Source: Aurantimicrobium minutum (GTDB lineage: Bacteria; Actinomycetota; Actinomycetes; Actinomycetales; Microbacteriaceae). Taken from it: a DNA stretch of 64,000 nt. A program made the position numbers and the translations under genes. Positions within the stretch are counted from its first letter, which is position 1; every line of letters starts with the position of its first letter. This document shows, piece after piece, positions 10,266 to 61,682 of the stretch. The notes under the pieces were generated by a model. The model saw only the letters and a program-made list of their open reading frames with translations. It made no database searches and had not been told where the DNA came from. The DNA lies in the NCBI RefSeq assembly GCF_029893825.1, contig NZ_JARXXV010000001.1, forward strand, positions 248,001-312,000, written 5' to 3'.

Positions 10266-10724
10266 ATGAGCCTCACAATCGGTGCACCTGCTCCAGATTT
10301 CACTCTGAAAAACCAGTTTGGTGAAGAAGTTTCTCTTTCTCAGTTCCGTGGGGTGAAACCCGTTGTTCTCGTGTTCTACCCGCTGGCATTCACCGGTATC
10401 TGCACAGGCGAACTCTGCGAGCTGCGAGATAACATCTCCGTGTTCAAGACCAATGGGGTTGAGTTACTCGCGATCTCTGTGGATTCAAGCCCCACACTTC
10501 GAGTTTTTGCAGAAAAAGAAAACTACGACTTCTCCCTCCTGTCTGACATGTGGCCTCACGGTGCTGTCGCATCTGCCTATGGCGTATTCCTTGAAGACAA
10601 GGGTTTTGCTAACCGTGGAACATTCGTCATCGACAAGGACGGAAACCTGGCTGGACAGTTCGTCACCGAGCCTGGACAGGCACGTGATTTTGCTTCGTAC
10701 AAAGAGCTGGTTGAAAACCTGTAA
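10266..10724 (+). CDS. peroxiredoxin (AhpE/Bcp-like)
   Basis: The 152-residue thioredoxin-fold protein reduces peroxides. The peroxidatic cysteine is Cys46 in PLAFTGICTGELCELRD, with a second cysteine five residues on (Cys51), a spacing seen in Bcp-type two-cysteine enzymes; classic AhpE has only the first. The start is the ATG at 10266, preceded by AAAGGAAG; an in-frame extension upstream has no such site. The closest named relatives by the TG-I-C-x-GEL motif are mycobacterial AhpE and bacterioferritin comigratory protein. A tRNA-Val gene follows at once and may share its transcript. Confidence 0.88.
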   Translation: MSLTIGAPAPDFTLKNQFGEEVSLSQFRGVKPVVLVFYPLAFTGICTGELCELRDNISVFKTNGVELLAISVDSSPTLRVFAEKENYDFSLLSDMWPHGAVASAYGVFLEDKGFANRGTFVIDKDGNLAGQFVTEPGQARDFASYKELVENL

Positions 10725-10739
10725 TATGGTTTTCAACAC

Positions 10740-10812
10740 GGGCCTTTAGCTCAGTTGGTAGAGCGCCACGTTTACACCGTGGATGTCATCGGTTCGAGCC
10801 CGGTAGGGCCCA
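10740..10812 (+). tRNA. tRNA-Val (TAC)
   Basis: The 73-nt cloverleaf has acceptor strands GGGCCTT and AGGGCCC (one G-U pair), the D-loop motif AGCTCAGTTGGTAGAGC, and a T-loop TTCGAGC. The anticodon stem CCACG/CGTGG encloses TTTACAC, so the anticodon is TAC. The 3' CCA is not encoded. A rho-independent terminator follows. Confidence 0.97.
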
Positions 10813-10820
10813 CTCGTGTG

Positions 10821-10850
10821 AAAGAGCGTCGCAGAAATGCGACGCTCTTT
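10821..10850 (+). terminator. rho-independent terminator after tRNA-Val
   Basis: A 13-bp perfect stem (10821-10833 with 10838-10850) around a GAAA loop is followed by CTTTTTCC. It ends the peroxiredoxin and tRNA transcript. Confidence 0.9.
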
Positions 10851-10960
10851 CTTTTTCCTCAACTTGCGACACCCGCAAGTGAACTTTTGGGTTAACGTTT
10901 GGAACTCAAGTAGGGTGCTCTGAGGGGATTTCCCCCTGACCTGAGCATAGGAGCGTGACA

Positions 10961-11764
10961 ATGTCTGAAGAATCTGAATCGACATTCCAGCCCCACTCGG
11001 ATGAAGAGCTCGCTCGTTTGCTTGAGGAACAAATGCTCGCCATGCGCGCAGCAACACCCATGACCGCACCACAACCTGTCGTGGAAAACCCCTCAACACA
11101 CAGTGTTGACGAGGCAGAACCTGAACTTGGTATCGACGATCTTTTCGGAGCTCTCTTAGAAGACACCACCGATATTCCTGTGGTTCAGGTTGTTCAAGAA
11201 GAAGTCATTGAGCTTGCTCCAGTTGATGAGTCTGTACTCGAACACACTCAGCCCATCACCTACATTCGTGAAGAGGTTGTTGAAGCTGCTTTCGTTGACG
11301 ACCACGTCATCGTGGAAGAGACAGTTGTTGAAGATGTCGTCGAGGATGCACATGTCATCGCCGAACGTGTACTTTCTGAAATCAGCATCGACGGTGAAAT
11401 TGTGGCAACCACGATTGCGGAAACAGCAGGTTCGGACCCGATTCCGCAAATGTTTGGGTTTGCCGAAGTTGTTGAATCTGTGCCTGCACCAGTGTCAGCT
11501 GTGCCAGTTGTGGCAGCCGTCGAATTTGCTGCAGTACATGTCGAAGATGATGCCGTTATCTTTGACGAGGTAACAGAAGTTGTTGAGGAAGAAGTTTTTC
11601 CTGCCGCTGACGACAGTGATGACGTCATCGTTGAGCACGTCATCGTGGAAGAAGTTGTTGAAGTAACAGAAGTGCCTCAGCTTCGGATGAATAACCCCAT
11701 CAATTCTTTTGCTCCACGACCCACTTTTGACGAACTCGTTTTTGGAGTGAAGTCTGAGGACTAG
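10961..11764 (+). CDS. very acidic, Val/Glu-rich hypothetical protein with SepH-like C-terminal motif
   Basis: The 267-residue protein starts at the ATG at 10961, seven bases after AGGAG. It is strongly acidic and low-complexity, dominated by VVEE, VIVEE and DDVI blocks (about residues 70-245), so it is probably disordered or extended. The N-terminus has a short predicted helix, DEELARLLEEQMLAMRAA, and a second conserved-looking patch GIDDLFGALLED. The C-terminus reads RPTFDELVFGVKSED, close to the end of the SepH protein in this window (PSWDDIVFGTRSDD). There is no signal peptide, membrane segment or cysteine. The next gene (Nif3-like) starts ten bases after the stop, suggesting one operon. 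I do not recognise a named family. Confidence 0.75.
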   Translation: MSEESESTFQPHSDEELARLLEEQMLAMRAATPMTAPQPVVENPSTHSVDEAEPELGIDDLFGALLEDTTDIPVVQVVQEEVIELAPVDESVLEHTQPITYIREEVVEAAFVDDHVIVEETVVEDVVEDAHVIAERVLSEISIDGEIVATTIAETAGSDPIPQMFGFAEVVESVPAPVSAVPVVAAVEFAAVHVEDDAVIFDEVTEVVEEEVFPAADDSDDVIVEHVIVEEVVEVTEVPQLRMNNPINSFAPRPTFDELVFGVKSED

Positions 11765-11773
11765 GCTCGCATC

Positions 11774-12589
11774 GTGACTAATCTTCGCGACGTTATTGAG
11801 TTTGCTCATTCACTCTGGCCACTTTCTGGTGCAGAAAGCTGGGATGCGCCTGGACTAGTTTCTGGTTCCCTCGATGCGCCAATCAACCGCATACTTTTTG
11901 CTGTAGATGCCGTAGCTGAAACAGTTCAGCAAGCTGTTGAGGTGGAAGCAGATCTTCTCATCACGCACCATCCCTTGCTGATGCGTGGAGTCACAAGTGT
12001 GAATGAAGAGCTGTATAAGGGAAACTTGATTGCTCAGCTCATTCGCGGAAACGTTGCACTCCTTGCCGCACATACAAACGCGGATGTAGTAGAGAACGGC
12101 GTCTCTGATGTCATTGCTCAGTCCCTCGGGTTGCTCAATACTGCTCCCATACAGCCAGGTGTAGTTGCAGGTACTGGAATTGGTCGGGTGGGACAGTTGC
12201 CGCAGGCAACAACGCTTGGTGCACTTGCACGTGAGCTTGCCGATCTCCTTCCAAATACCGCCGGCGGAGTGAAAGTGTCAGGAGACTTTAACGCTTCCGT
12301 TTCACGCGTTGCTCTCTGTGGCGGTGCAGGGGATTCTCTCTTGGCAACCGATTTTGTTCGCACTGCGGATGTGTACATCACCTCAGACCTTCGTCACCAC
12401 CCCGCACAGGAAGCACGTGAACAAGCCCTAGTCTCCGGTGGTCCTGCACTGATTGACGTCTCCCACTGGGCTTCTGAGTGGCTCTGGCTTGATGTCGCTG
12501 CAGAGCAGATTCAGAAACAATTCCCTGAGATTGATGTGGAAGTTTCCGATCTGCGTACAGATCCTTGGGACTTCCTCGTCGTACAGTAG
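11774..12589 (+). CDS. Nif3-like dinuclear metal center protein
   Basis: The 271-residue protein belongs to the NIF3/DUF34 family (also known as GTP cyclohydrolase I type 2-like). The metal-binding histidines are visible in THHPLLMRG near residues 65-75, in AAHTNADV near residues 98-105 and in DVSHWASEW near residue 233. The family forms hexamers with a two-metal site; its physiological substrate is unsettled. A GTG start at 11774 lies ten bases after the acidic protein's stop. The following gene encodes the C4-type zinc-ribbon family, a pairing conserved across Actinobacteria. Confidence 0.9.
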   Translation: MTNLRDVIEFAHSLWPLSGAESWDAPGLVSGSLDAPINRILFAVDAVAETVQQAVEVEADLLITHHPLLMRGVTSVNEELYKGNLIAQLIRGNVALLAAHTNADVVENGVSDVIAQSLGLLNTAPIQPGVVAGTGIGRVGQLPQATTLGALARELADLLPNTAGGVKVSGDFNASVSRVALCGGAGDSLLATDFVRTADVYITSDLRHHPAQEAREQALVSGGPALIDVSHWASEWLWLDVAAEQIQKQFPEIDVEVSDLRTDPWDFLVVQ

Positions 12590-40809: not shown

Positions 40810-41958
40810 ATGTCCATCATGTTACCGAGCCAGATTTTCGCTCAGTTGAGCCTTGCCGACGTGTTGCCAAGTTGCCTCGCGAGCATGGGTGCTGAGGATT
40901 TTCCCAATAACCTCGGACTTTCTCCCGCTCGTTCTGCGGTCGTGGTACTGGTTGATGGTTTAGGGCTTCACAATCTGAAAAATGCCCAAGCACATTCACG
41001 ATTTTTAGCCAGCAATCTGGGTGCTTCTGCAGTTCTTTCCACGGTGTTCCCCAGCACAACAGCTGCAGCATTGGCATCTCTCACAACAGGAGTTACCCCA
41101 GGTCAACACGGGATGACTGGGTACAAAACCCGGAATCCGCTCTCGGGTGAAGTCCTCAACCTATTGACTGGTCTCGGTGCTCTCGAGGACCTTGACTCAT
41201 GGCTCACCAGTTCCTCCCTCTTTGAGGTTGCCCGCCGAAATGAGATTGCATCATCTGTTGTGGCACATCCACGATTTGCAGCAACACCACTGACGCAGCT
41301 CATTCATGCAGGTGCCACCCAACTGAGTGCAAAAGACCTCGACGATCGGGTCTCTGCAACGGTGGCATCTGTTTCCGAACCGGGACAACAACTCGTTGTT
41401 CTTTATGTTTCAGAACTTGACGAGATTGCTCACAACAAAGGTGTGAATAGTTCTGAGTGGGCAGCAGCGCTCGAATCTCTCGATGGGGCTCTCAAACATC
41501 TTTCACAACGTCTTCCTCAGGATGTTGGAATGGTCATCACTGCTGATCATGGGGTGCTAGATGTCCCATCCTCAAAGCACTACCTCTTTGGGAATGACAG
41601 CGAACAGATGCAATATATCGACCAGGTTGGTGGCGAGCCGCGCTGTTTGCAGTTGTATTTCTCTGAAAACACTTCGCAAGAGCAGCGTGAGGCGACATTA
41701 GCTTCTTGGCGCCGGGATTGGTCAGAACTGGCTTATGTTTTGACCAGAGACGAGGTCGCCACCTCCGGGCTTTACGGACGAATCCGAGAGGGTAATGAAG
41801 AACGTCTAGGTGACATCTTTGTGATGGCCAAGAAAGACGTCGCCTTTTATGACGAACGAGATAAGTCCAAGAAGGGAAGATCCATGATTGGCCAACATGG
41901 CGGGATTTCACCTATTGAAATGGCAATCCCAGGAATACTTCTTGGAGCTTTCGCCTAG
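40810..41958 (+). CDS. alkaline phosphatase superfamily nucleotide pyrophosphatase/phosphodiesterase
   Basis: The 382-residue protein belongs to the type I phosphodiesterase/NPP group (PF01663). The metal-binding Asp and catalytic Thr are in [13 protein letters not shown] (about 40) and [12 protein letters not shown] (about 80). Later ligands are in [14 protein letters not shown] (about 205) and [11 protein letters not shown] (about 245). It likely hydrolyses a phosphodiester; the substrate is unknown. No signal peptide is evident, so it is probably cytoplasmic. The ATG at 40810 is divergent from parC. Its stop shares bases with the stop of the convergent sepH (CTAG). Confidence 0.88.
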
Positions 41959-42989
41959 GCGGGATCGTCGTCAGAACGCGTTCCGAACACAATGTCATCC
42001 CAGGAAGGCATTGCAGGTCGGCCATTCTTGCCAATTTGCTTCGAGTCATTCTTTGACTCTGCCGGGGCAACAACCGGAGCCTCTTCAGAAACACTCATGT
42101 CGAATGGCTCAGTGAAGTTGATAGTCGCATCGAATTCCACTGTGTTACCACTGATAACCGTGTCATCGCTGACTACATCGATAGCTTCCGTGGCAGCGCT
42201 GACTTCGTCTTTGAGCCAGGCAGGTGTGGCTTCGCGCTCATTACGTCGTTTGCGTAATGCTTCCAATAAATCTGCAGTGGGACTGTGTTCCCGAGTTTGA
42301 GCGGCAGGGGCTTCTTCTAGCTCTGTTGAAACAACTGGAGCAATTCGAGGGGAATCCTCTGCAACGGGTTGAACAATGACGGTGTCAGCACTGTCAGGTG
42401 CTACAGCGCGAAGTTTAGGAATGAGTCCTGTGTTGAGTTCGCTCTTTTGAGACAAGGTTGATGCATCGCTGTTGACTGGGGTGAGCGTTCGCTTACGAGG
42501 TTCAAAAGACCACCGTGCATCGTGTTCAATCGAGTTTGCTGTGAACAAGAGCTTGACTATCCACGAGCCAGTTTCTTCTTTCCAGGTTGCCCAACGTTCA
42601 GAAGTGGCACCCAGGCTGTGGAGTCGCTGGGTTATCACGGTTCCAAAAGCAGTACTGAGGTTTCCGGTTTCAGTTTCTACAGTTGTTTGCGTAGGAACGG
42701 ACAATGCAGAGCTAATAATGAATTCGCGTTCTGCCAGGACAGGCGTTTCGAATCGTTGAATCAAATCCAGAGTTGCACCAGTCAAGGCAGAGATTTCTTC
42801 ATTAGAAAGACCGGCACGCAAGTGCGCTTGAATGTCCTTGGGTGAAACACGAGGGCCATCTTCGGAAGCGCGAGTGTGACGCAGACGGCGCAGTGAAGTT
42901 TCATCCACGGGAATACGGAATTCGTTCCCCTCGGGATCTGTGGCGATGAGGGTCGCGCCATCAACATCGGTGACAGTAAGTTCACGCAT
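41955..42989 (-). CDS. sepH: SepH (DUF3071) cell division protein
   Basis: The 344-residue protein has the DUF3071 N-terminal domain (MRELTVTDVDGATLIATD...) with the internal helix-turn-helix-like segment around 51-80. The middle is long and disordered. The C-terminus is conserved (PSWDDIVFGTRSDD). In Streptomyces and mycobacteria SepH binds FtsZ through the helix-turn-helix segment and supports division. The start is the ATG at 42989, with AGGAG upstream. It is convergent with the phosphodiesterase gene and divergent from the DUF4193 gene. Confidence 0.92.
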   Translation of the reverse strand: MRELTVTDVDGATLIATDPEGNEFRIPVDETSLRRLRHTRASEDGPRVSPKDIQAHLRAGLSNEEISALTGATLDLIQRFETPVLAEREFIISSALSVPTQTTVETETGNLSTAFGTVITQRLHSLGATSERWATWKEETGSWIVKLLFTANSIEHDARWSFEPRKRTLTPVNSDASTLSQKSELNTGLIPKLRAVAPDSADTVIVQPVAEDSPRIAPVVSTELEEAPAAQTREHSPTADLLEALRKRRNEREATPAWLKDEVSAATEAIDVVSDDTVISGNTVEFDATINFTEPFDMSVSEEAPVVAPAESKNDSKQIGKNGRPAMPSWDDIVFGTRSDDDPA

Positions 42990-58954: not shown

Positions 58955-59042
58955 CTCGCTGAACAGTTTCGGTAATCCTGCTGCAGCACACTCATTTCAT
59001 GAGATGGGTATGTCCCCGTCACAATTCGTGAAAGAGGTTGAA

Positions 59043-60299
59043 ATGGATCAAGGCAACACAGCCTTTGTACTCATCAGTGCAGCATTAGTGCTCCTGATGA
59101 CTCCCGCCCTGGCGTTCTTCTATGGCGGACTTGTCAAAGCTAAGAGCGTTGTCAGCATGATGATGCTGAGCTTTGGTTCACTCGCACTCATTGGTGTGCT
59201 GTGGGTTATCTATGGTTACGCCATCGCATTCGCCAACTACGGCACTGACACCTTCTACGGTATCGATGGTGTGATTGGTATCGACACCGCATTCATTGGC
59301 CTGGACGGACTTCTTACTACACCCGATGGAGCTGCTTTCCCTCCGCTTGCTTTTGCAGCATTCCAGGCAACCTTCGCCATCATCACTGTGGCTCTGATCA
59401 GCGGCTCGATTGCTGACCGTGCCAAGTTTGGCGCATGGCTAGTTTTCGCAGGAATCTGGGCGACTGTGGTCTATTTCCCAGTCGCATCGTGGGTATTCAA
59501 CTTCACCATTGTTGACGGAAAAATAGTCGACGGTGGTTGGATCGCTTATAACCTCGGCGCAATCGACTTTGCCGGTGGTACCGCAGTTCACATCAACGCT
59601 GGTGCTGCTGCCTTGGCTCTGGCTCTTGTTCTGGGTAAGCGCATCGGTTTCGCTAAGGGTGTTGCCAAGCCTCACAACGTTCCACTTGTTCTCCTCGGTG
59701 CTGGTTTGCTGTGGTTCGGCTGGTTCGGTTTCAATGCTGGATCCGAACTCGCTGCTGATGGCATTGCTTCGCTTGCTTTCATCAACACCATTGCCGCTCC
59801 TGCTGCCGCTGTATTGGGATGGCTGCTCATTGAGCGCATCAAAGAAGGTAAGGCAACCTCAGTTGGTGCCGCTTCAGGTGCTGTAGCTGGTTTGGTTGCG
59901 ATTACTCCCGCTTGTGCAAACCTCACGCCAATGTGGGCAATCGTGCTTGGTCTCTTGGCAGGTGCTGTTTGTGCACTAGCAATCGAACTCAAGTTCACCT
60001 TCGGTTTCGATGACTCACTCGATGTAGTCGGAATTCACCTCGTCGGTGGTCTGATCGGAACGCTGTTCCTTGGCTTCTTCGCAACTGACGTAGGACTGAT
60101 CTTCTCTGGTTCATTTGAGCAACTTGGTAAGCAGGCAATTGCTGCCTTCACAGTTCTCATCTTCTCCTTCGTGATTAGCTACATCATCGGAACGATTATT
60201 GAGAAGACCATGGGCTTCCGTATCAAGAACGAAGATGAACTCGCAGGTATTGACACCATCGTTCACGGTGAAGAGGGATACGCGCTCCAGGACGCATAA
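59043..60299 (+). CDS. amt: ammonium transporter
   Basis: The 418-residue AmtB/Mep channel has about eleven membrane helices starting with NTAFVLISAALVLLMTPALA. Twin histidines line the pore: His183 in GGTAVHINAG and His332 in DVVGIHLVGG, as in E. coli AmtB His168/His318. Phe gates lie in FAAFQATFAI. The ATG at 59043 follows AGAGG. No glnK follows; instead a close paralogue does, 135 bases downstream. The gene is likely nitrogen-regulated, given partial GlnR elements upstream. Confidence 0.95.
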   Translation: MDQGNTAFVLISAALVLLMTPALAFFYGGLVKAKSVVSMMMLSFGSLALIGVLWVIYGYAIAFANYGTDTFYGIDGVIGIDTAFIGLDGLLTTPDGAAFPPLAFAAFQATFAIITVALISGSIADRAKFGAWLVFAGIWATVVYFPVASWVFNFTIVDGKIVDGGWIAYNLGAIDFAGGTAVHINAGAAALALALVLGKRIGFAKGVAKPHNVPLVLLGAGLLWFGWFGFNAGSELAADGIASLAFINTIAAPAAAVLGWLLIERIKEGKATSVGAASGAVAGLVAITPACANLTPMWAIVLGLLAGAVCALAIELKFTFGFDDSLDVVGIHLVGGLIGTLFLGFFATDVGLIFSGSFEQLGKQAIAAFTVLIFSFVISYIIGTIIEKTMGFRIKNEDELAGIDTIVHGEEGYALQDA

Positions 60300-60434: not shown

Positions 60435-61682
60435 ATGGATACAGGTAACACCGCTTTTCTGATCATCTGCACGGCGCTCGTTTTGATGATGACGCCAGCT
60501 CTTGCATTCTTCTATGGCGGATTAGTTCGCGCGAAGAGTGTGATCAGCATGATGATGCTGAGTTTTGGCTCGATGGCCATCGTCGGTGTTCTGTGGATTA
60601 TCTATGGCTATGCCATTGCGTTCCCCGCGCTTGATAGTTCTTCCTTCTACGGCGTTCCTGGAGTTTTCGGGATTGACCTTGCGCACATTGGGTTAGAGAA
60701 CCTTATCCAGATTCCAGATGGCGCAACAGTCCCGCCCCTGGTTTTCGCAGCATTCCAGGCAACCTTTGCCATCATCACAGTTGCACTGATTTCAGGCGCA
60801 ATTGCTGACCGTGCAAAGTTCGGTGCCTGGATGGTTTTTGCTGGCGTGTGGGCAACCTTGGTTTATTTCCCAGTTGCTTCGTGGATATTCAACTTCACAG
60901 TCGCAGATGGTGAAATGACCAGCGGTGGATGGCTCGTCTATAACGTGGGTGCACTTGATTTTGCTGGTGGTACAGCAGTTGAAATTAACTCTGGCGCTGC
61001 CGCACTTGCACTTGCTCTCGTATTGGGTAAGCGCATCGGCTTTGCCAAGGGGGTTCATAAGCCCCACAACGTTCCATTTGTGCTCCTAGGAGCAGGTCTG
61101 TTGTGGTTTGGCTGGTTTGGTTTCAATGCAGGTTCAGCCGTGGCTGCAGATGGTATTGCGGCGGTTGCTCTGATCAACACGATGGCTGCTGGCGCTTCGG
61201 GAATTATTGGATGGCTCATCATTGAGCGATTCAAGGATGGTAAAGCTACCTCAGTAGGTGCTGCATCCGGAGCCGTGGCAGGTTTGGTTGCCATCACTCC
61301 ATCCTGCGCGTATTTGACCCCAACCTGGGCGCTCGTACTCGGATTCGTTACCGGTGTGCTGTGTGCATTGGCAGTTGAACTGAAATTCACCTTCGGTTTT
61401 GATGACTCACTTGATGTGGTCGGTATTCACCTAGTTGGTGGACTAATCGGAACCTTGTACCTGGGAATTTTTGCTACCGAAGTTGGTCTGATCTACTCAG
61501 GTTCATTCGAACAATTGGGGAAGCAAGCAATTGCGGCCTTCAGCGTTCTGATCTATTCGTTTGTTTTGTCGTTCGCTATCGGTTGGGTCATTGATAAGAC
61601 AATGGGCTTCCGAGTTCGCAATGAAGATGAACTTGCCGGTATTGACCTCGTCATGCACGGTGAAGAGAGCTACGACTACTAA
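60435..61682 (+). CDS. amt: ammonium transporter paralogue with Glu at the first twin-His position
   Basis: The 415-residue protein aligns with the upstream Amt without gaps over the whole pore core. The second pore histidine is conserved (His332 in DVVGIHLVGG), but the first is Glu183: GGTAVEINSG instead of VHINAG. In E. coli AmtB this first position is His168. Fungal Mep1/Mep3 naturally have Glu there, so the channel is probably functional but with altered selectivity or mechanism. It starts with a GGAGG ribosome-binding site. No glnK follows. Confidence 0.93.
   Translation: MDTGNTAFLIICTALVLMMTPALAFFYGGLVRAKSVISMMMLSFGSMAIVGVLWIIYGYAIAFPALDSSSFYGVPGVFGIDLAHIGLENLIQIPDGATVPPLVFAAFQATFAIITVALISGAIADRAKFGAWMVFAGVWATLVYFPVASWIFNFTVADGEMTSGGWLVYNVGALDFAGGTAVEINSGAAALALALVLGKRIGFAKGVHKPHNVPFVLLGAGLLWFGWFGFNAGSAVAADGIAAVALINTMAAGASGIIGWLIIERFKDGKATSVGAASGAVAGLVAITPSCAYLTPTWALVLGFVTGVLCALAVELKFTFGFDDSLDVVGIHLVGGLIGTLYLGIFATEVGLIYSGSFEQLGKQAIAAFSVLIYSFVLSFAIGWVIDKTMGFRVRNEDELAGIDLVMHGEESYDY

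Follow-up and report, generated by a model that had tools for sequence, protein, structure and literature searches.

SepH is a regulator of FtsZ (PMC7968930). In the part of that study consulted here, all SepH proteins analysed share a 10-residue string at the far C-terminus, the function of which was unknown to its authors; the C-terminal half is described as required for SepH to reach tetramer size and to localise efficiently, and as showing no FtsZ binding in a two-hybrid assay, no rise in GTPase activity and a diffuse distribution in cells (PMC7968930). Among the matches listed in a search of the open-access literature, with subscription papers and preprints outside its scope, we found no work on the function of this motif beyond PMC7968930.

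Here, we analysed a window of 64,000 nucleotides (C1:248001-312000) from an Aurantimicrobium genome of 1.67 Mb in two contigs, in which SepH and an acidic protein share a tail of the form P-[ST]-aromatic-D-acid-[IL]-V-F-G-x-basic-S-acid-D. In both proteins, this string closes or nearly closes a low-complexity tail and is predicted to form the same short helix; the acidic protein differs from SepH in lacking DUF3071, in having F in place of W, and in carrying the motif at its very end in the window. Another comparison, alongside a possible beta-clamp resemblance, is the C-terminal tip of SSB (DDIPF type), a hub-ligand tail peptide that requires a terminal Phe carboxylate. The idea of an acidic-hydrophobic tail is the same, but SepH and the acidic protein lack the terminal Phe carboxylate.

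The acidic protein and SepH in the window

SepH (DUF3071; 344 aa) is encoded on the minus strand at 41955..42989, an interval that contains stops on the forward strand, and was identified by PF11268 (115.9 bits) and the NCBIfam SepH model NF040712 (175.5 bits over residues 1-340). Its tail motif, PSWDDIVFGTRSDD (residues 328-341; 41967..42008, minus strand), is followed by DPA. The acidic, mostly disordered protein of 267 aa is encoded on the plus strand at 10961..11764, an open reading frame that matches the one quoted in the sequence-only reading; it ends in ...FAPRPTFDELVFGVKSED, with the tail motif PTFDELVFGVKSED at residues 254-267 (11720..11761, plus strand). That reading had placed a common pattern at the extreme C-termini of both proteins; we confirmed the pattern in both, with the SepH copy stopping 3 residues before the protein end. 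It had also held the remainder of the two proteins to be unlike, and this was borne out: the acidic protein has no match at E<=1 in either Pfam or NCBIfam, the DUF3071 domain with HTH of the SepH N-terminus, through which SepH binds FtsZ, being among the missing, and has no other convincing likeness to SepH. Judged by sequence, it is not a SepH, but a second protein bearing the tail of SepH.

In a BLASTP comparison of the two proteins, the top alignment is the tail (14 residues, 7 identical, 13 positive; E 0.002 for a single comparison), which starts two residues ahead of the pattern quoted earlier, at P-[ST]. It is followed by a low-complexity stretch (66 columns, 33%, E 0.021) and then by noise. 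Among the 1485 pairs of C-terminal 25-mers from 55 open reading frames of the window, picked by length and uncurated, the pair formed by the acidic protein and SepH scores 49 and the next one 31, whereas tail shuffling, repeated 60 times, gives maxima of at most 45. The resemblance is real and unlikely to be due to chance. The sole higher pair, with a score of 85, consists of two adjacent genes with similar C-termini (59004-60299 and 60435-61682), the tail of which looks like that of an ammonium transporter.

At the DNA level, 25 of the 42 tail bases agree, with agreement at only 4 of the 14 third codon positions, so that the likeness resides at the protein level, which argues against a recent DNA copy. 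Such divergence would result if the two tails had converged on one binding site, and equally if a SepH tail had been captured long ago. The DNA pattern for the core [WF]D[DE]xxFG, the degeneracy of which also admits C and L in the first place, has 2 matches in the genome, both in the acidic gene and SepH, and 0 in the reversed control. When the pattern is widened a little and one mismatch is allowed, 2 further genome matches appear (in frames of 23 and 15 residues), with 2 in the control as well.

The AlphaFold model of the acidic protein was built from four sequences and that of SepH from the single sequence without an alignment. In the acidic protein, 181 of 267 residues have a pLDDT below 50 (mean 47), and helices are predicted at residues 14-30, 58-67, and 256-261, the last of which reads FDELVF. 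The SepH model is poor, with a mean pLDDT of 41.6, mostly low values even in the known domain and about 55 at the motif, and from it we used, cautiously, the local motif helix only (residues 330-335, WDDIVF, one helix among others). The predicted helix covers exactly [WF]D[DE][LI]VF in both proteins, at low confidence. Block means of the pLDDT are 75 and 71 in the tail of the acidic protein, compared to 30 to 52 for residues 71-250, and 51 and 55 in the SepH tail, compared to 28 to 41 for the preceding 50 residues. The [ST]-x-x-[DE] element would serve as an N-capping box, and the G as a C-cap.

Further upstream in the acidic protein lie an N-terminal helix (residues 14-30; 11000..11050) with the conserved pattern SDE.LA.LLE.QM, an inner conserved patch GIDDLFGALLEDTT (residues 57-70; 11129..11170) with a low-confidence helix at 58-67, and the genus-invariant TQPITY (11246..11263), all on the plus strand. 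The patch IDDLFGALLED, earlier described as a second copy similar to the tail, is present but misfits the tail pattern. In two g68 homologues (L151, L152), TQPVRY stands just ahead of the tail motif, and the T-x-x-[IV] of both strings presumably fits a phospho-threonine FHA ligand.

The gene lies in a slot that is preceded by tRNA-Val (10740..10813, plus strand) and bordered downstream by a gene at 11774..12589 (plus strand), which we take to be Nif3-like and which starts 9 bases past the stop of the acidic gene. Between the tRNA and the acidic gene, there is a terminator-like hairpin of 14 pairs followed by a T run (10820..10851, plus strand), one of two such sites in 10700-12000, where shuffled sequences average 1.4.

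The slot protein in Aurantimicrobium and related genera

The acidic protein appears to be the slot protein of Aurantimicrobium (g1) and a few other genera of Microbacteriaceae. The other Aurantimicrobium proteins are 53 to 73% identical to that of the window, and all eight of the genus that we searched share SFAPRP-[ST]-FDELVFG with a final D, the inner patch GI..LFGALLEDT and TQPITY. A profile made from the genus alignment found, in 150 family genomes and beyond Aurantimicrobium itself, only g104 (2 genomes), one g82 contig and one marginal membrane-protein tail; because of this short reach, wider homologues were sought by synteny and motif.

In four other genera, the slot (peroxiredoxin/AhpE-like, tRNA, X, Nif3-like) holds a strongly diverged protein with an F-D-acid tail. 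The g68 tails read ...RLTFDEIVFGV.SAPE.N and ...QRPTFDEVVFGRRA (FDE[IV]VFG), and those of g13 read ...RPTFDEVLYGT.. or, in G019, RPTFDDIIFGKSSR (FDEVLYG or FDDIIFG). The g104 tails, ...RLSFDDLLLGPTSDE and ...RKSFDDLISGS (FDDLLLG or FDDLISG), and the g60 tail, ...RATSFDELMGHSGE (FDELMG), which belongs to a frame that is not acidic overall, were counted as degraded (three of 20). A C-terminal [ST]-F-D-[DE]-[ILV] tail is found in all 20 slot loci (eight in g1, three in g68, six in g13, two in g104, and one in g60), with the qualification that the g68 loci and five of g13 were found through the motif itself, so that the agreement of these eight is built in; g1 and g104 were identified by sequence, and g60 and one g13 locus (G123) by synteny. 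The motif G lies 3 to 10 residues before the end of the slot proteins. The tail is conserved against a diverging background.

By simple patterns, the AhpE-like, tRNA T-arm and Nif3-like neighbours are all present in 18 of the 20 slot loci; one exception misses the Nif3 pattern only (L153, the Nif3-like gene of which is seen in L030), and the other is cut upstream by the locus end (L162). The N-terminal helix, [HNQ]-S-[DT]-x-[DE]-L, is recovered in g1 and g104 (E ~1e-8), weakly in g68 (E 0.06 to 0.5) and by eye only in g13, and was not seen in g60.

At 47 other sites upstream of Nif3-like genes (30 loci and 17 stretches, among the matches), no slot-type tail was seen. Several of these sites are occupied by a long membrane protein that looks like a permease by eye and has an acidic or hydrophilic N-terminal tail (L046, L099, L100, L102). 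One such tail (G087, L046) gives a marginal match to the slot-protein profile (E 0.0095) and carries TQPI-like/DTQP repeats, evidence too thin for deriving the acidic protein from the leftover tail of a lost membrane transporter. The g82 contig (L043; G090:C126) ends in a slot protein nearly identical to one from Aurantimicrobium; the Nif3 stretch of that genome (L113) shows none, and the contig is probably misplaced.

In a tree of SepH N-terminal domains, the 12 carriers of the slot tail fall on one side of a branch and 13 other genomes on the other (96/93); G019 and G123, with too little sequence, and G068 were not part of this tree. From this grouping, the slot gene seems to have arisen once, in that clade.

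Occurrence of the motif in family, class and species

In the family, SepH tails carry the motif in its W form. DUF3071 was found in 28 of 29 chosen family genomes, and the SepH tails of these 28 all read P-[STAE]-W-D-x-I, with VFG or LFG next in 24 of them and VS (G146, G076) or VLG (G124, G020) in the other four. In 53 SepH tails counted, the motif G or its substitute lies 4 to 13 residues before the end. In the class, the W form with a preceding S or T was matched in 93 of 148 genomes, once in each and never twice, with 2 matches in the control; counted by pattern, these are candidate SepH proteins.

The core pattern occurs in 145 of 150 family genomes, and its reversed control gave 13 matches in 150 genomes, counted by eye among the matches listed. 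Among the 29 new loci in the matches listed, 25 have W-form tails of the SepH kind (MPSWDEIVFG and variants), read as SepH from the tail alone, and the remaining four are the acidic protein of other Aurantimicrobium (2) and the g68 slot protein (2). The extra family matches of this looser pattern are not far above that control. Three of the 20 such loci examined lie within 20 residues of the end of an open frame, a candidate gene (at 20, 12, and 1 residues), and none of these three has [ST] before W or F.

The F form, [ST]FD[DE]xx[FY]G, has matches in 26 of 398 family genomes, with 2 in the control as read from the rows. In 17 of the 26, the match is in the slot protein, with 3 to 10 residues after it (eight in g1, three in g68, and six in g13, among which the G019 locus is cut off upstream by the locus end); of the other nine, eight lie 13 to 499 residues before the ends of other frames, and one (G259) has no reading with [ST]. 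In the class, F-form matches occur in 9 of 394 genomes, the genome of the window and 8 others, and none of these 8 foreign matches ends a plausible gene; one of them sits in a frame of 36 residues, 7 before its end. The sequence-only reading, in proposing a shared docking peptide, had named two findings that would speak against it: homologues of the acidic protein without the motif, and the motif at random frequency in unrelated proteins. The homologues keep the tail throughout Aurantimicrobium and in g68 and g13, although it is degraded in g104 and g60, and at protein ends the motif is rare, with most family matches of the F form ending one protein family. The docking proposal survives on both counts, and that reading is partly supported.

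A stricter pattern, P[ST]FDE..FG, was searched in 84,980 species, one genome each, a set that may omit records of the window's genome or near ones, and yielded 30 loci. In four of these, the frame exceeds 100 residues and stops no more than 10 residues past the motif, namely, three from Aurantimicrobium and a MAG (L200), the last 40 residues of which are identical to those of the g68 member G076, so that the two are probably the same genome. Among these loci, this lineage is the only one with the strict F form at the end of a frame longer than 100 residues. The rest comprise eight loci near the ends of frames below 100 residues in other organisms, which we took as noise, four without a frame containing the motif, and 14 internal ones.

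Five Microbacterium loci (L175, L180, L191, L198, L201) carry PSFDEILFG within the acidic, low-complexity tail of a protein with an ABC ATPase domain, named by eye. The motif and its acidic setting are the same as in the slot protein, but the position is internal (69 to 226 residues before the frame end), the enzyme domain is unrelated, and the motif is confined to close orthologues. [PR]SFD[DE]ILFG was found in 6 of 8 orthologues at least 85% identical within the genus of G284; G284 is cut there at a contig end, its motif being seen in L157, and G809, the eighth orthologue, returned no entry. By a loose pattern, the motif is absent from 20 more distant orthologues among the matches listed, many of them short-tailed, one of which has PTFEELLRG. 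This patch may be the same docking peptide or a product of convergence, and a third, internal user places less weight on 'C-terminal' and more on 'portable'. In four of the Microbacterium loci (L175, L191, L198, L201), the long acidic tail is His/Glu-rich and contains a second conserved block, DPR.AAVS.MLAAAARAYYEDEP. Another near-match is the internal HSFDE[VI]VYGG in alike proteins of two f22 genomes (L170, L171).

The two tails do not change in lock-step. Two g68 SepH proteins (L130, L134) read WDEIVSE and WDQIVSN, with FG lost, and the slot proteins of the same genomes keep FDEIVFG and FDEVVFG; in g104, conversely, the slot tail is degraded and the SepH tail kept. This separate drift excludes strict lock-step coevolution of the two tails.

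Possible roles of the shared tail

The explanation that we favour, at somewhat better than even confidence, is that [ST]-[WF]-D-[DE]-[ILV]-[VLI]-[FY]-G serves for docking as a short helix that caps itself, with the W form in SepH and the F form in a tether formed by the slot protein. SepH would bear the W form widely across the actinobacterial class, and the acidic slot protein of a small-genome clade of Microbacteriaceae would have gained the F form, apparently once. The slot protein would be a disordered tether, with the N-terminal helix and the inner LFGALLED patch available for other contacts and acidic spacers between them, and its SepH-type tail would let it sit on, or compete for, the site used by the SepH tail. 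Docking peptides are typically built in this manner, with three or four hydrophobic side chains on a short, capped helix that ends a long disordered chain.

We infer that the motif docks and that both proteins use one partner, which would be a member of the division machinery or the oligomer of SepH itself rather than FtsZ. The docking reading draws on the presence of just two core matches in the genome, the invariance in all eight Aurantimicrobium proteins down to 53% identity, the slot tails in the four other genera, the carriers on one branch, the single W-form match per class genome, the helix at both motifs, the divergent third codon positions, and the conserved string of PMC7968930. From its position and conservation, the tail of the acidic protein would correspond to that string, as far as the source describes it. 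Against docking stand the failure of the tails to track each other in g68 and g104, the internal third user, a hint that disordered acidic tails can give rise to patches of this kind, the low AlphaFold confidence, and the near-control level of the extra family matches.

Alternatively, although we consider this unlikely, the motif could be a self-association element, through which the C-terminal half of SepH would oligomerise and the slot protein would either self-oligomerise or join the SepH oligomer. Disordered proteins run large on size exclusion, so the tetramer size of SepH may be apparent only. The published data, in the part consulted here, are in line with self-association in that SepH and SepH-CTD elute at tetramer size and SepH-NTD as a dimer, and in that a mutant without FtsZ binding still self-interacts, but they cover SepH and its halves, not the motif alone (PMC7968930).

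We give rather little credence to convergence without a common partner, whereby a capped hydrophobic helix turn would arise in acidic disordered tails for general reasons such as solubility or weak sticking. The internal occurrence in the ABC ATPase tails of a Microbacterium subclade and the degraded copies in g104 and g60 would be expected under this scenario; the confinement of the strict form at the ends of longer frames to this lineage and the invariant core in Aurantimicrobium are not.

The nearness of the motif G to the end in both SepH and slot proteins is what a signal for degradation or turnover, read by one protease or adaptor in both proteins, would predict, but its distance to the end varies, and typical C-degrons are shorter than this motif. 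Considering also that SepH with a C-terminal YPet fusion is functional and stable, in the part of PMC7968930 consulted, we regard such a signal as improbable. Docking of the tail on FtsZ, the partner considered in the sequence-only reading, has in its favour that SepH regulates FtsZ but is highly improbable and largely contradicted, because the C-terminal half of SepH, as far as PMC7968930 was consulted, neither binds FtsZ in the two-hybrid assay nor raises GTPase activity nor localises alone, being diffuse in vivo; another division or polarity factor, or the SepH oligomer itself, fits better.

To conclude, a second bearer of the tail provides a handle on the role of the conserved SepH tail, which was left without a function in the part of PMC7968930 consulted. 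Two baits with one common prey would offer an unbiased route to the partner, and the second tail yields a prediction of the residues that count. Genetic work is feasible in the host genus: for Aurantimicrobium photophilum, natural transformation and the inactivation of genes are described, and a search for the genes that give these bacteria their unusual cell shape is now possible, according to the part of PMC11577799 consulted. Tentatively, the SepH string may be a portable docking module for an actinobacterial hub, and in a clade of freshwater small-genome Microbacteriaceae a disordered protein may have arisen, on a single occasion, that binds this hub too and thereby competes with SepH or modulates it in cell division or cell shaping.
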